Made by a program: the position numbers and the translations under genes
Part shown: positions 24,920 to 31,578 of the stretch, piece by piece
How positions within the stretch are numbered: the stretch's first letter is position 1
Layout: the number at the start of each line of letters is the position of its first letter
Assembly (NCBI RefSeq): GCF_000737865.1
Contig: NZ_CP007287.1
Location: forward strand, 1,434,972-1,498,971
DNA length: 64,000 nucleotides
Origin: Bifidobacterium coryneforme
GTDB lineage: Bacteria > Actinomycetota > Actinomycetes > Actinomycetales > Bifidobacteriaceae
Direction: 5' to 3'
Notes under the pieces: generated by a model
Told to the model about the DNA's origin: nothing
Database searches by the model: none
What the model saw: the letters and a program-made list of their open reading frames with translations, nothing else

Positions 24920-25975
<1,056 letters not shown>

Positions 25976-26144: not shown

Positions 26145-28235
26145 TCAGAGCATGCAGCTGACGCAGCCTTCGACCTCGGTACCCTCCAGGGCCTGCTGGC
26201 GGATGCGGATGTAGTAGAGGGTCTTGATCCCCTTGCGCCAGGCGTAGATCTGGGCCTTGTTCAGGTCACGGGTGGTGGCCGTATCAGGGAAGAAGAGGGT
26301 CAGCGAGAGCCCCTGGTCCACATGCTGGGTGGCCTCGGCATAGGTATCCACTATCTTCTGCCAACCAATCTCATAGGCATCCTCGAAGTACTCAAGGTTC
26401 TCATTGGTCATATAGGGAGCCGGATAGTAGACGCGCCCGATCTTACCCTCCTTGCGAATCTCGATCTTGGAGGCAATCGGGTGGATGGAGCTGGTTGAGT
26501 GGTTGATGTATGAAATCGAACCGGTGGGGGGAACGGCCTGGAGGTTCTGGTTGTAGATGCCGTCCTTGAGGATGTCCGCCTGGAGCTGCTTCCAGTCCTC
26601 GACCGTGGGAATCTCCACCCCGTACTGGTTGAAGAGATCCTTGACCCGCTGGGTTCTGGGTTCCAGGGACCTGCGGCCATCCGTGTACTTATCGAAGTAG
26701 TTCCCCTGCCCGGCCGGCTTGGCATAGTCGGACCTGGGGAAGGAATCGAAGGCCTTCCCCCGCTCGACGGCAATCCTATGCGAGGCCTTGTAGGAGTGGT
26801 AGGCAACGGTCATGAAGTACATGTCCGTAAAGTCCAACCCCTCCTCGGACCCGTAGTGAATTCCCTCACGGGCCAGGAATCCATGGAGGTTCATCTGCCC
26901 CAGACCGATGGCGTGACCCTCATCGTTGCCCCGCTTGATGGAGGGGACGGCCTCGATGTTGGTATGGTCCGCCACCGAGGTCAGGGCCCGCACCGAGGTC
27001 TCCACCGTGTCGGCCAGACCACCATCCATGGCCTTGGCGATGTTGAGTGACCCCAGGTTGCAGGAAATGTCGCGACCGACATGGTCGTAGTCAAGGTTCT
27101 CGGTATAGGTGCTGGGCTCCTGGACCTGAAGAATCTCCGAGCAGAGGTTCGACATGGTGATGCGCCCGTCAATCGGGTTGGCCTTGTTGACCGTGTCCTC
27201 AAAGAGGATGTAGGGGTAGCCGGACTCGAACTGGATCTCGGCCAGGGTCATGAAGAAGTCACGGGCGTCGATGTACTTCTTGTGGATTCGCTTGTCCTTG
27301 ACCATCTCATCGTAGTGCTCGCTGATGGAGATGTCCGCGAAGGGCTTCCCGTAGATCCTCTCCACATCGTAGGGGGAGAAGAGGGCCATGGGGGCCCTCT
27401 GCTTGGCCAGCTCGAAGGTGATGTCGGGAATGACCACGCCCAGGGCGAGGGACTTGATGCGAATCTTCTCGTCCGCGTTCTCACGCTTGGTATCCAGGAA
27501 GCGCATGATATCGGGATGGTGGGCCGAAAGATAAACGGCACCTGCACCCTGACGGGCACCAAGCTGGTTGGCGTAGGAGAAGGAGTCCTCCAGGAGCTTC
27601 ATGACCGGCACCACGCCGCTGGACTGGTTCTCGATGTGCTTGATGGGTGCGCCCATCTCGCGCAGATTGCTGAGGAGAAGGGCGACGCCACCGCCGCGCT
27701 TGGAGAGCTGGAGGGCGGCATTGACGCCACGGGAGATGGACTCCATGTTGTCTTCGATACGCACCAGGAAGCAGGAGACCGGCTCCCCCCTCTGAGCCTT
27801 GCCCAGGTTCAGGAAGGTGGGCGTGGCGGGCTGGAAGCGGCCGGAGATGATCTCATCCGCATACTTGATTGCCGCATCCTCGTCACCATCCGCCAGCTCC
27901 AAGGCCACGGCCACTGAACGCTGGGGAAAGTCCTCAAGGTACTGCTTGCCGTCAAAGCTCTTCAGCGCATAGGAGGTATAGAACTTGAAGGCACCCAGGA
28001 AGGTATCGAACTCGAATCCGCTTTTGGCTGCGTGGTCGTAGATCCTGTCCAGGAACTCGGGGGTGTAACGCTCGAAGACCTTCCGATCGTAGTACTCGTT
28101 ATCCAGCAGATACCTGAGCCGCTCGGCGGTGGAAGGGAAGGCCATGGTGTTGGCAGCCACATGGTGGGTGACATACTGGCGCTCGGCCTCCTTGTCCTTG
28201 TTGAATTGGATCCTGCCATCCGCGTCACGCGTCAT
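26145..28235 (-). CDS. nrdE: Class Ib/Ie ribonucleotide reductase catalytic subunit NrdE, main part of a frameshifted gene
   Basis: This 696-residue frame holds nearly all of NrdE, the subunit that reduces ribonucleoside diphosphates to deoxy forms. Present are the redox cysteines Cys155 ([11 protein letters not shown]) and Cys392 ([11 protein letters not shown]), the thiyl-radical site NMSNLCSE (Cys365), and the C-terminal thioredoxin/NrdH-contacting pair CVSC. No ATP-cone is seen, as usual for class Ib. The normal N-terminus ([13 protein letters not shown]...) is in another frame directly upstream, at 28225-28347, because a perfect 7-bp tandem duplication breaks the frame. Removing one copy gives a normal protein of about 731 residues. 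As it stands, translation must restart at the ATG at 28235, which overlaps the upstream stop by 11 bases, giving an enzyme about 40 residues short. Confidence 0.92.
28221..28234. repeat. Perfect 7-bp tandem duplication inside the nrdE 5' coding region
   Basis: On the coding (minus) strand TGACGCG occurs twice in tandem. The first copy creates the in-frame TGA that ends the upstream frame. Deleting one copy restores L-Y-D-A-D-G-R-I-Q, which matches NrdE across the joint. Confidence 0.95.
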
Positions 28236-28347
28236 AGAGGTTGAGCATGGCGTTCAGCGCATGATAGTCATGCGCTGGATCATGGTCCTGCTCCTCACGG
28301 GTCCCCGTCTTGTCCAAACTGAGCGAAGTATCGTCGTAGGCGCCCAT
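28225..28347 (-). pseudogene. nrdE: 5' fragment of nrdE (40 codons, out of frame with the main part)
   Basis: An ATG at 28347 with a strong AGGAAAGGA site opens a 40-residue peptide ending [15 protein letters not shown] and a TGA. The last 13 residues are the conserved NrdE N-terminal motif, which in other class Ib enzymes continues directly into x-G-x-IQF-x-KD; here that continuation is in the next frame ([14 protein letters not shown]). So this is the true nrdE start, cut off by the 7-bp duplication. The stop and the downstream ATG overlap (ATGACGCGTGA), so termination-reinitiation could still produce the main part. It begins 43 bp after the nrdI stop. Confidence 0.9.
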
Positions 28348-28390: not shown

Positions 28391-28900
28391 TTATTCAGGA
28401 TGATTGTGGAAGAAGTCGAGCACACCCTTACGGACCTTGTCTTCGTCTTCCTTGGTGCCCATGAGTTCGAAATAGTAGAGGAAGGGCACCTGGCACTTGC
28501 GTGAGATGATGTCACCGGCCATGCAGAAGGCGTCGCCGAAGTTGGTGTTGCCCGAAGCGATGACCCCACGGATGCAGGCCCGGTTCTGCGGATCGTTGAG
28601 GAAGCGCTTTATCTGGGGCATGACCGCCTTCTTGGCCGAACCGCCACCATAGGTCGGCACCACCAGAATGTAAGGTTGGTTCACCTTGAGCTCAGGATCC
28701 TTGGGACGGAGGGGGATTCGGAACACATCAATCCCCTCATCCTCCAGATGGCAATTGGCGATGAATCTGGCCGTGTTCTGCGAGGCCGAGGAGAAATAGA
28801 CCACCGACCCTACACGGTCCCCCTTTGCAGCCAGCTCCGGAGGGCTGACCTCCCCCTGGTCCCCCGGCCCGACTGGACCCGGTTTCGCCATATCCGACAT
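28391..28900 (-). CDS. nrdI: Flavodoxin-like maturation protein NrdI
   Basis: This 169-residue protein has the NrdI fold: a core start [15 protein letters not shown] that binds the FMN phosphate, VPTYGGG, and the flavin-loop region [19 protein letters not shown]. NrdI supplies superoxide to activate Mn2-NrdF in class Ib, and in class Ie it is needed for the hydroxylation of tyrosine to DOPA. The first 28 residues are a polar extension. AGGAGG lies 6 bases before the ATG at 28900. It follows a pair of NrdR-like boxes and comes directly before nrdE; no nrdH lies upstream as it would in a nrdHIEF operon. Confidence 0.95.
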
Positions 28901-28980
28901 ACGATGACCTCCTGAAGCCTCCGGATCTCCCCGGATAAAACCTGCGTGCTCCCTGCCTTCAAATCAGGAAGCCTCAACTA

Positions 28981-29021
28981 CTATATATGGGGACTCGCCG
29001 CAAAACGAGCACCACATATTG
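28981..29021. promoter_or_regulatory. Pair of NrdR-like boxes upstream of nrdI
   Basis: CTATATATGG (28981-28990) and CCACATATTG (29012-29021) match the NrdR-box core CTAKATATWG at 9 and 8 of 10 positions and are centred 31 bp apart, three helical turns. NrdR, a dNTP/ATP-sensing repressor, binds such pairs before nrd operons. This implies that nrdI-nrdE-nrdF2 has a promoter of its own inside the 168-bp nrdF1-nrdI gap. Confidence 0.7.
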
Positions 29022-29068
29022 TGCCAACTGTTCTTCATCTCACATAGATGCCCATCCCGGGCAATATT

Positions 29069-30118
29069 TCAGAAATCCCAGTCGCCGTCATCCGTGGACT
29101 CCGAATGTCCCATGACATAGGATGACCCGGACCCGGAGAAGAAATCGTGATTCTCATTGGCCGACGGAGACAGTGCGGCCAGAATCTCCGAACTGACAGC
29201 GGTCTGGTCCGATCCGAACCGTGCCGGATAGCCCAGGTTCATCAGCGCCTTGTTGGCGTTGTACCGAACAAAGGCGAAGACATCGTCCACAAAGGGGAAC
29301 CCCTCATAGATCTGGCCCGAGTAGACCATCTCCATGTCATAGAGCCTGTCGAGAAGGTCATTGGTGAACTTCTCCAGCATGACGCGGTCACCCTCGGTCC
29401 TATCCTCCAGGCCCCGCTGGAACTTATAACCGGAGTAGTAGCCATGAATGGCCTTGTCGCGCAGAATCAGGCGAATCATATCAGCCGTGTTCATCAGCTT
29501 GGCGTGACTGGAGAAATACAGCGGCAGATAGAACCCGGCATAGAGCATGAGGGAGGAGAGCATGGTGGAAGCCACCTTGCGCTTCAACGGATCATCGCTG
29601 ACATACTCCTGCAGGACCGCATGGACCCGCTCCTGGAGGACGTCATTGGCCACGGCCCAGCGATAGGCCCTGTCGATCTCGTCGCTGGAGCAGAGGGTGG
29701 AGAAGACCGACGAGTAGGACCGGGCATGGACCGACTGCATGAAGGCGATATTGGTATAGATGGCCTGCTCCTGCTCGGTGCGGGCATGATCTATCTGAAC
29801 CAGCTCTCCGATGGTGGCCTGGGTGGTATCCAGCATGGTCAGACCGGTGAAGACCCGGACCGTGGTCTGCCGCTCATGCTCGGTCAGACCATTCCAGGAG
29901 GGAATGTCATTGGACAGAGGAACCTTTTCGGGGAGCCAGAAGTTGGAGACCAGGCGATTCCAGACCTCCAGGTCCTTCTCATCGGTGATGTGGTTCCAAT
30001 TGACCGGTCGGACCCTGCCCTCGGGATTGACCCGGTACTCGGGCGGGGTAATGGAGGCCTTCATCATCGCATCATCCGCATAGGCCCCGGCTGCCTCGGT
30101 CTCGATTTTCGCACTCAT
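29069..30118 (-). CDS. nrdF: Metal-free class Ie (QSK type) ribonucleotide reductase radical subunit, NrdF1
   Basis: The 349-residue protein aligns without gaps to NrdF2 through the active-site region but has lost three of the four carboxylate ligands that are glutamates: Gln128 (FMQSVH) for Glu98 of E. coli NrdF, Ser188 (TMLSSL) for Glu158, and Lys222 (RDKAIH) for Glu192. Asp97, His131, His225 and the radical-site Tyr135 are kept. Gln/Ser/Lys is exactly the QSK signature of class Ie, in which the tyrosine is hydroxylated to DOPA and works with no metal. The tail [29 protein letters not shown] keeps the NrdE-binding form. The start at 30118 has AGGTAGGA; an ATG six codons upstream is weaker. 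NrdR-like boxes precede it. Confidence 0.95.
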   Translation of the reverse strand: MSAKIETEAAGAYADDAMMKASITPPEYRVNPEGRVRPVNWNHITDEKDLEVWNRLVSNFWLPEKVPLSNDIPSWNGLTEHERQTTVRVFTGLTMLDTTQATIGELVQIDHARTEQEQAIYTNIAFMQSVHARSYSSVFSTLCSSDEIDRAYRWAVANDVLQERVHAVLQEYVSDDPLKRKVASTMLSSLMLYAGFYLPLYFSSHAKLMNTADMIRLILRDKAIHGYYSGYKFQRGLEDRTEGDRVMLEKFTNDLLDRLYDMEMVYSGQIYEGFPFVDDVFAFVRYNANKALMNLGYPARFGSDQTAVSSEILAALSPSANENHDFFSGSGSSYVMGHSESTDDGDWDF

Positions 30119-30234
30119 GTCCGTCCTACCTTTCATAACGTCTTCTACCCCCGCTCATATGGTTCTCGTCCGCAGCAGTCCTTGGACGTACCCTGCAACA
30201 GACGGATATGGATAGGGCTACTGCCGTACAGGCA

Positions 30235-30276
30235 CTAGATATTGTTATCTCCAGTGCAGGCAACCACAATATATAG
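30235..30276. promoter_or_regulatory. Pair of NrdR-like boxes upstream of nrdF1
   Basis: CTAGATATTG (30235-30244) and CAATATATAG (30267-30276) both match the NrdR-box core fully, in opposite orientation, and are centred 32 bp apart. They lie about 120-160 bp before the nrdF1 start. The rest of the 377-bp gap 30119-30495 holds no gene; a 9-bp hairpin at 30456-30479 after the aminotransferase may be its terminator, but it lacks a T run. Confidence 0.8.
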
Positions 30277-30495
30277 GCTCCCAAGAGCGGACACAAGCCT
30301 AAAAGCGGGTGTTTATGGCAGCTTGTGAGAAACCTAACAAAAACTTCGACCCCTCAAAGATTGGCTGTTCGGGACCTGGCACCCCTGTTCCACAAGCCAT
30401 AAACAGAGGGGGAAAAGCGAAGGACAGAAAAGGGCCATGCCAGCGCATACAGAGCCGGGCGGTCTCCCTTGACCGCCCGCGGCTCCCACAAATCC

Positions 30496-31578
30496 TCAGA
30501 TCAGCCCCTGCTCCTTAAGATCGGCACAGACCCGGATGACCCGGTCGTTGGCCTCGGCCTCCCCGATGGTTATGCGTATGCCTTCGTTCGGGAAGGCCCT
30601 GACCGCGAGACCGTTGGCAAGGAAGCTCTCATAGGCCTGGTCCGTGGCCCCACCCAGGGGCAACCAGAAGTAGTTGGCCCGGGAGCGGGGAATCCACCAT
30701 CCCTGCCCCTCCAGGGCGGCAACCACCTTGGCTCGTTCCTTCATGATGCCTTCCACGCGATCCCGGAGCTGGTCGGACACATCGAGACTGACCATGGCGG
30801 CCTCCTGGGCCATGTCGCTGACACCGAAGGGCAGGGCCACCTTGCTCAGTCCCTGGACCACCTCGGCCGGTGCCACAGCGTAGCCGATGCGCAGGCCGGC
30901 CAAGCCATAGGCCTTGGAAAAGGTTCTTGCCACAACCACATTGGGATGATTCCGCATGAGTTCCAGCCCCTTGGCCTGGGCGGGATCGTCATTGAACTGG
31001 AAATACGCCTCGTCGAAGAGAACCAGGACATCATCGGGCACCGCCTCAAGCAGACGCAGCGCCTCCTCCTGCGAAACCGAAGTACCCGTAGGATTGTTGG
31101 GATTATTGACGATGACCAGACGCGTTCTGTCGGTCAGAGAGGCAATCATGGCCTCGATGTCGTGCCCGCCCCTGCCGTTCAACGGCACCGGCACGCAGGT
31201 GGCTCCGGCACCGGTCACGATGATGGGATAGGCCTCGAAACTCCGCCAGGGATACATCACCTCATCCCCCTCGCCGGCCACAAGATTGACCAGCTGGGTG
31301 ATGACCTCCGTGGACCCGCACCCCAGCTGGATGTTCTCCGGGGCAACCTGGTGCAGGCGGGCCAGGCGCTCGACGAGCACCGTCCCACGCATATCCGGAT
31401 AGCGGTTCAGGTGAACCAGGGCCCGGCCCGACACGGCCTCCCTGACAGCGGCCAGAGGAGGATAGGGGTTCTCATTGCTGGAGATCTTATAGGGGGTCAG
31501 TCCCGGGGTGACCGGAGCCGCCTTGCCCTGCCTGTAGCCGGGCAGGGCATCAATGGAAGAGCGATGTCTGTATGCCAT
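30496..31578 (-). CDS. HisC-like aminotransferase (histidinol-phosphate or aromatic)
   Basis: The 360-residue fold type I PLP enzyme resembles HisC: KISSNENPYPP near the N-terminus, VNNPNNPTGT, DEAYFQF and the PLP lysine in ARTFSKAYGLAGLRIGYA. HisC makes histidinol phosphate from imidazole acetol phosphate; actinobacterial paralogues of the same shape act on aromatic 2-oxo acids. The gene is not in a histidine operon, so the paralogue reading is quite possible. The ATG at 31578 begins MAYRHRSSID; an ATG three codons earlier is an alternative. Confidence 0.8.
   Translation of the reverse strand: MAYRHRSSIDALPGYRQGKAAPVTPGLTPYKISSNENPYPPLAAVREAVSGRALVHLNRYPDMRGTVLVERLARLHQVAPENIQLGCGSTEVITQLVNLVAGEGDEVMYPWRSFEAYPIIVTGAGATCVPVPLNGRGGHDIEAMIASLTDRTRLVIVNNPNNPTGTSVSQEEALRLLEAVPDDVLVLFDEAYFQFNDDPAQAKGLELMRNHPNVVVARTFSKAYGLAGLRIGYAVAPAEVVQGLSKVALPFGVSDMAQEAAMVSLDVSDQLRDRVEGIMKERAKVVAALEGQGWWIPRSRANYFWLPLGGATDQAYESFLANGLAVRAFPNEGIRITIGEAEANDRVIRVCADLKEQGLI

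Follow-up and report, generated by a model that had tools for sequence, protein, structure and literature searches.

A class Ie (QSK) ribonucleotide reductase subunit encoded beside a class Ib subunit, one NrdI and one NrdE in Bifidobacterium coryneforme

What can a radical subunit of ribonucleotide reductase (RNR) do if three of its metal ligands are gone, and which partners would mature it and use its radical when a second subunit with the full set is encoded nearby? The question is raised by nrdF1, a gene of Bifidobacterium coryneforme in the 64,000-nucleotide stretch of contig NZ_CP007287.1 analyzed here (positions 1,434,972 to 1,498,971; the window). A first-pass annotation, made from the letters alone, had read its product, NrdF1, as a class Ie subunit of the metal-free QSK type. 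We compared the gene, its neighbors, and its genome with relatives, solved structures, and the literature.

Results and Discussion

The cluster and the gene content of the genome

The features on which the analysis draws are as follows:

29069..30118, minus strand: nrdF1, class Ie (QSK) RNR radical subunit, 349 aa (Pfam PF00268; QSK clade; alignment to 8RAG)
28391..28900, minus strand: nrdI, flavodoxin-like activase (PF07972 and TIGR00333, above cut-off)
28225..28347, minus strand: 40-aa leader, encoding the N terminus of NrdE out of frame with the rest (reading frames; comparison with L114)
26145..28235, minus strand: nrdE (R1), a 696-aa frame without the first residues (TIGR04170, PF02867)
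24920..25915, minus strand: nrdF2, class Ib radical subunit that retains the six metal ligands (D/E/H/Y/E/E/H; class Ib clade)
30232..30279, no strand assigned: tandem NrdR-like boxes upstream of nrdF1, at 30232 and 30264, 32 bases apart (consensus match and alignment to relatives)
28978..29024, no strand assigned: tandem NrdR-like boxes upstream of nrdI, at 28978 and 29009, 31 bases apart (consensus match)

Read along the minus strand, the cluster runs nrdF1(QSK), nrdI, nrdE, nrdF2(Ib), and successive genes are 168, 155, and 229 bases apart; the second gap, from nrdI to nrdE, is 43 bases if measured to the leader start at 28347. The genome is one contig of 1,755,151 bases and contains two NrdF proteins and one each of NrdI, NrdE-type R1, NrdH, NrdR, and the anaerobic NrdD. 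The search that gave this single NrdI match gave two matches when run identically on genome G020. For nrdF1 itself, an in-frame ATG at 30136 would yield 355 aa; the start at 30118 is preceded by a purine-rich stretch and agrees with the relative L115.

The sole nrdE of the genome carries a 7-base direct duplication near 28221-28235, by which its first 40 residues lie out of frame with the rest. Because nrdE of the same-species genome (L114) has a single open frame, we set aside a programmed frameshift and consider a strain mutation or an assembly fault likelier. The ATG of the 696-residue frame overlaps the end of the leader, and translation might restart there. Elsewhere, nrdE lies in two frames beside nrdF(QSK) at L176 727-3700 and L182 5182-8072, both in genomes with the order nrdI-nrdE-nrdF(QSK), and the C-terminal tail of nrdF(QSK) is in another frame at L173 4631-5899 and L013 7896-9164 (Bifidobacterium sp. 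ESL0682).

NrdF1 groups with the class Ie QSK subunits

The seven site residues of NrdF1 are D97, Q128, H131, Y135, S188, K222, and H225. Reading them directly bore out the earlier observation that Gln128, Ser188, and Lys222 accompany the kept Asp97, His131, Tyr135, and His225. The gap-free offset of 30 residues to E. coli NrdF held as well: the aligned ranges to PDB 3n37 (entry label “reductase 2 subunit beta”), which we take to be that protein, are of equal length. Three of the six metal ligands of a class Ib subunit are thus absent from NrdF1, and all six are present in NrdF2.

We read the same sites in 129 NrdF rows, made up of the best 80 of 589 matches in named genomes plus the loci of the window's genus, with three genomes entering twice (L003/L119, L004/L118, and L011/L126). 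The pattern was QSK in 61 rows, EEE in 67, and a remote third kind in one (L143), with no intermediates, which argues that the QSK pattern of NrdF1 is not chance, although rarer intermediates may exist among more distant matches. Named relatives among those best 80 of 589 matches, with 90% identity in NrdF1, include B. choladohabitans, B. mellis, and B. apousia, from which we judge that the host belongs to the B. asteroides group. The third kind is a remote small-subunit-like reading frame near a contig end (L143 2766-6009, genome G007) with the site residues EEHYEIS. L143 also holds a C-terminal NrdE fragment (87% identity) beside a frame that we named DnaJ-like by eye, and the contig that carries it has matches listed at both ends.

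The closest solved structure pointed the same way. A phmmer search of PDB with NrdF1 returned 8RAG first (E = 7e-180, 601 bits), followed by 8RAH; after these two came chains named as class Ib, which scored at most 429 bits, and the VPK class Ie chains, counted as such following PMC11846895 and PMC8463856, at most 398 bits. NrdF1 and 8RAG are identical at 262 of 337 positions (78%) with zero gaps and an offset of 15, so that all seven site residues correspond to D112, Q143, H146, Y150, S203, K237, and H240 of 8RAG. These are the seven residues named for 8RAG in its structure paper (PMC11846895).

In a quick tree of 118 of the 129 rows, a single branch (SH-aLRT 100) split the QSK proteins (58 of 58) from class Ib (60 rows). 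NrdF1 stood among QSK rows of bee-gut and other Bifidobacteriaceae. The tree retained the three defining columns (3 of 336), contained no VPK rows, and was built without L003, L004, and L011 (second copies, two rows each), the remote L143, and L055, L056, L069, and L081; the last four, omitted by choice for the nearness of their genera to listed germs, were kept in the residue count and in the diagnostic-site count. At 17 diagnostic sites, where QSK (59 rows) and Ib (65 rows) differ at a level of at least 95%, NrdF1 agreed with the QSK rows, and NrdF2 with the Ib rows, at all 17; these include the three defining sites, and the window genome and the same-species genome were excluded from the references.

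The class assignment made in the first-pass annotation is therefore backed by the tree, the diagnostic sites, and a close solved homolog, and the placement outside class Ie that it had named as refutation did not occur: NrdF1 fell inside the QSK clade and apart from class Ib. On its residues, clade, and 17 of 17 sites, we set aside a plain, drifted class Ib subunit. Such proteins had also been expected to be annotated as plain NrdF, and the NCBIfam label of NrdF1 is indeed class 1b subunit beta, so automatic annotation would hide its class. We regard NrdF1, on these comparisons, as a genuine class Ie QSK subunit, one more member of a type characterized in 2025 (PMC11846895).

Partner proteins in the window and in relatives

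All 27 genomes of the genus gave an NrdF match. The QSK gene is intact in 18 of them and decayed in one (G017); the other eight have class Ib only. In 13 of the 18 (L115-L127) the order is nrdIa-nrdF(QSK)-nrdIb-nrdE-nrdF(Ib), with nrdIa directly before nrdF(QSK) and its stop overlapping the nrdF(QSK) start at the one junction examined (L115). The window genome and the same-species genome G014 are missing nrdIa. In the remaining three (G015, G023, and G024), a stand-alone nrdF(QSK) lies apart from nrdI-nrdE-nrdF(Ib), with one NrdI each.

Across the family, 142 of 189 genomes gave a match, with at least 66% identity in 55, and the residues were QSK in all 49 that were read among those 55. The 49 divide into 13 of the two-NrdI type, two of the window type, 12 with nrdI-nrdE-nrdF(QSK), and 22 stand-alone. 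Stand-alone here means that no nrdI or nrdE adjoins nrdF in the fetched stretch; L161 has both about 11 kb off on the other strand. When we sought a remnant of nrdIa in 29901-30500 of the window, the best protein match was 24 residues long (E = 0.16), and the best DNA match, 21 bases long and on the other strand, fell on the promoter boxes themselves.

The NrdI proteins appear to form two lineages. The window NrdI groups (100/99) with the NrdI proteins of Bifidobacteriaceae, most of which come from class Ib clusters, and this lineage also includes the Gardnerella NrdI. A first NrdI tree, from which the same loci were dropped as from the NrdF tree, had long branches that met nrdIa. In a second, with long-branch and near-copy rows also dropped (66 rows, four of the 13 nrdIa kept), nrdIa still grouped with NrdI linked to QSK genes of other Actinobacteria (97/89), although an AU test did not reject nrdIa inside the Bifidobacteriaceae lineage (P = 0.157). 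Given that grouping, the likelier origin would be an incoming nrdIF(QSK) module.

The QSK type needs NrdI for its maturation, and the genome has a gene for it, but one of the Bifidobacteriaceae lineage that is mostly linked to class Ib. With one NrdI in the genome and nrdIa gone, this class Ib-lineage protein would have to serve both subunits. By analogy, such service to NrdF1 is plausible because the Gardnerella NrdI acts on its QSK subunit (PMC11846895). The large subunit may be common property too. Over their C-terminal 40 residues, NrdF1 and NrdF2 are identical at 29 positions, including a common 12-residue stretch, which fits the sharing of one NrdE, and the authors of PMC11846895 infer that an R1 that serves class Ib can be used by QSK subunits as well.

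Promoter sites and metal supply

Both nrdF1 and nrdI are preceded by tandem NrdR-like boxes, putative sites of regulation by NrdR. The scan finds about one pair per 64 kb in block-shuffled sequence, so it is position and conservation that carry weight, conservation more than the scan. Box pairs also precede nrdI in L114, L115, L119, L121, L127, and L135. The boxes upstream of nrdF1 align with those before nrdIa in 13 relatives, suggesting that nrdIa disappeared and left its promoter in place.

The first-pass annotation had further proposed that NrdF1 serves under metal limitation. The sole promoter sites found for nrdF1 are these NrdR-like boxes, which the class Ib genes have too; the genome also has a gene for a DtxR-type regulator, with nothing seen that would link it to the nrd cluster. 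Since higher iron and manganese lead to repression of class Ie genes in S. pyogenes (PMC8463856), use of nrdF1 under metal limitation stays, by analogy, a fair hypothesis.

Proposed mechanism and alternatives

We put the probability at roughly 85% that NrdF1 is a class Ie radical subunit that shares NrdE and NrdI with NrdF2, nrdIa having been lost and its promoter now driving nrdF1. Going by the homologous Gardnerella protein, Lys222 would occupy the first metal site and a water the second. NrdI would reduce oxygen and hand the oxidant to NrdF1, where Tyr135 would be hydroxylated to DOPA and a DOPA radical formed. By way of the C-terminal tail, this radical would then reach the active-site cysteine of NrdE. 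The model is the Gardnerella QSK subunit, for which trace-only metal, NrdI-dependent DOPA, and activity have been reported (PMC11846895). NrdF1 and NrdF2, encoded in one cluster, would both work on the same NrdE and NrdI; nrdIa would have been lost in the lineage of the species, as opposed to never having been present, leaving the class Ib-lineage NrdI to do both jobs.

A more specific version of this scheme is tentative, and we would wager somewhat against it. It holds that the one NrdI supplies superoxide to the dimanganese site of NrdF2 and also forms DOPA in metal-free NrdF1, and that the two subunits compete for one NrdE. In that case, the choice of the radical that starts the synthesis of DNA precursors would depend on nothing but manganese supply, and a dedicated metal regulator would be dispensed with.

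NrdF1 could instead be class Ie by descent and on its way out, no longer matured for want of its own NrdI and persisting because the loss is recent. The absence of nrdIa from both genomes of the species fits this, as do the nrdE broken in this assembly and a pseudogene in a sister genome: G017 also has no nrdIa, and next to its intact nrdI-nrdE-nrdF(Ib) lies a remnant nrdF(QSK) (L135 7801-9300) that has lost residues 80-257 and gained stops and frame changes, a course that the window species could be following too. According to PMC3447821, genes for catalase and superoxide dismutase seem to be missing from B. coryneforme and B. indicum, which keep the other respiratory genes, and oxygen uptake was not detected in either; this bears on how far these species need an aerobic reductase. 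Against the decay reading, nrdF1 is under purifying selection. Its dN/dS against 13 relatives is 0.07-0.09 (nrdF2, 0.06-0.07; nrdE, 0.08-0.09), on which we set aside a pseudogene; the frame has no stops, and the protein is identical in both genomes of the species. Moreover, a stand-alone nrdF(QSK) is common in the family (22 of the 49 genomes read, with one NrdI each in the three of these 22 that were counted), and we consider ongoing loss unlikely.

There are two further alternatives. NrdF1 might be the metal-free partner in a heterodimer with NrdF2 and no independent radical source, much as yeast Rnr4 pairs with Rnr2. Three ligands are absent from NrdF1, and both types are encoded together with one NrdE common to them; yet NrdF1 retains the N-terminal stretch that aligns with the extension forming the 8RAG homodimer contact, and two N-terminal motifs occur in 52 and 20 of 89 QSK rows and in none of 65 Ib rows (some genomes are represented twice). 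In Gardnerella the QSK protein is the only class I subunit, and it works (PMC11846895). The odds on a heterodimer are accordingly long. Longer still are those on ordinary drift of a class Ib subunit that goes on binding metal through other residues. The class Ib fold and the NCBIfam class 1b label would agree with it, but all three changes occur together, NrdF1 sits in the QSK clade with 17 of 17 diagnostic sites, and the close homolog holds trace metal only (PMC11846895). We therefore retain the class Ie reading with shared NrdE and NrdI.

Relation to known systems

What this analysis adds is the genomic setting, a QSK and an Ib subunit with a single NrdI and a single NrdE. In a 2017 paper on the reductases of bifidobacteria, the class I enzyme is treated as class Ib (PMC5535262). 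Among the papers listed, judged by title and the opening of the abstract and with most subscription papers outside the search, none dealt with class Ie in bifidobacteria of the bee gut or with an NrdI common to Ib and Ie. We claim no priority for the gene order: PMC11846895 states that nrdFIE occurs in no QSK genome, the cluster of the window species reads F(QSK)-I-E and then F(Ib), and the method of that paper, with gaps of at most 300 bases, would probably list this as nrdFIEF.

The setting bears on how class Ie subunits mature and on why a cell keeps a metal-free subunit beside a manganese one. Within bacteria of the insect gut, the clade provides a ready comparison of a dedicated NrdI, no such NrdI, a stand-alone QSK gene, and a sister with a decayed one. 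Comparing them would reveal if a given NrdI is tied to one type of subunit and if the subunits swap with metal supply. The bee-gut Bifidobacterium cluster is thus a natural test case, not a new kind of enzyme.

The nearest known system is the QSK R2 of Gardnerella vaginalis / Bifidobacterium vaginale (8RAG, 8RAH; PMC11846895), which is like NrdF1 in its seven site residues, 78% gap-free identity, N-terminal extension, and Bifidobacteriaceae-lineage NrdI. It differs in arrangement: Gardnerella has nrdHIEF with QSK as the sole class I subunit (PMC11846895), whereas in the window the QSK gene comes first, the class Ib nrdF last, and nrdH lies elsewhere. The VPK R2 proteins of Mesoplasma, Streptococcus, and Aerococcus (6GP2/8BT3, 6EBO; PMC11846895) are also class Ie, and their order nrdF-nrdI-nrdE matches the first three genes of the window, but their signature is VPK and their similarity to NrdF1 lower (at most 398 bits, against 601 for 8RAG). 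Class Ib NrdF (3n37 and NrdF2) shares the fold, the tail, and the NrdI and NrdE partners with NrdF1, yet keeps the three glutamates and forms a separate clade. Closest in logic are the nrdIF(QSK) stretches with nrdE elsewhere, of which PMC11846895 has 104, where the QSK subunit likewise borrows an R1 also used by class Ib; in the window, NrdI would be borrowed too, and all of the genes stand in one cluster.
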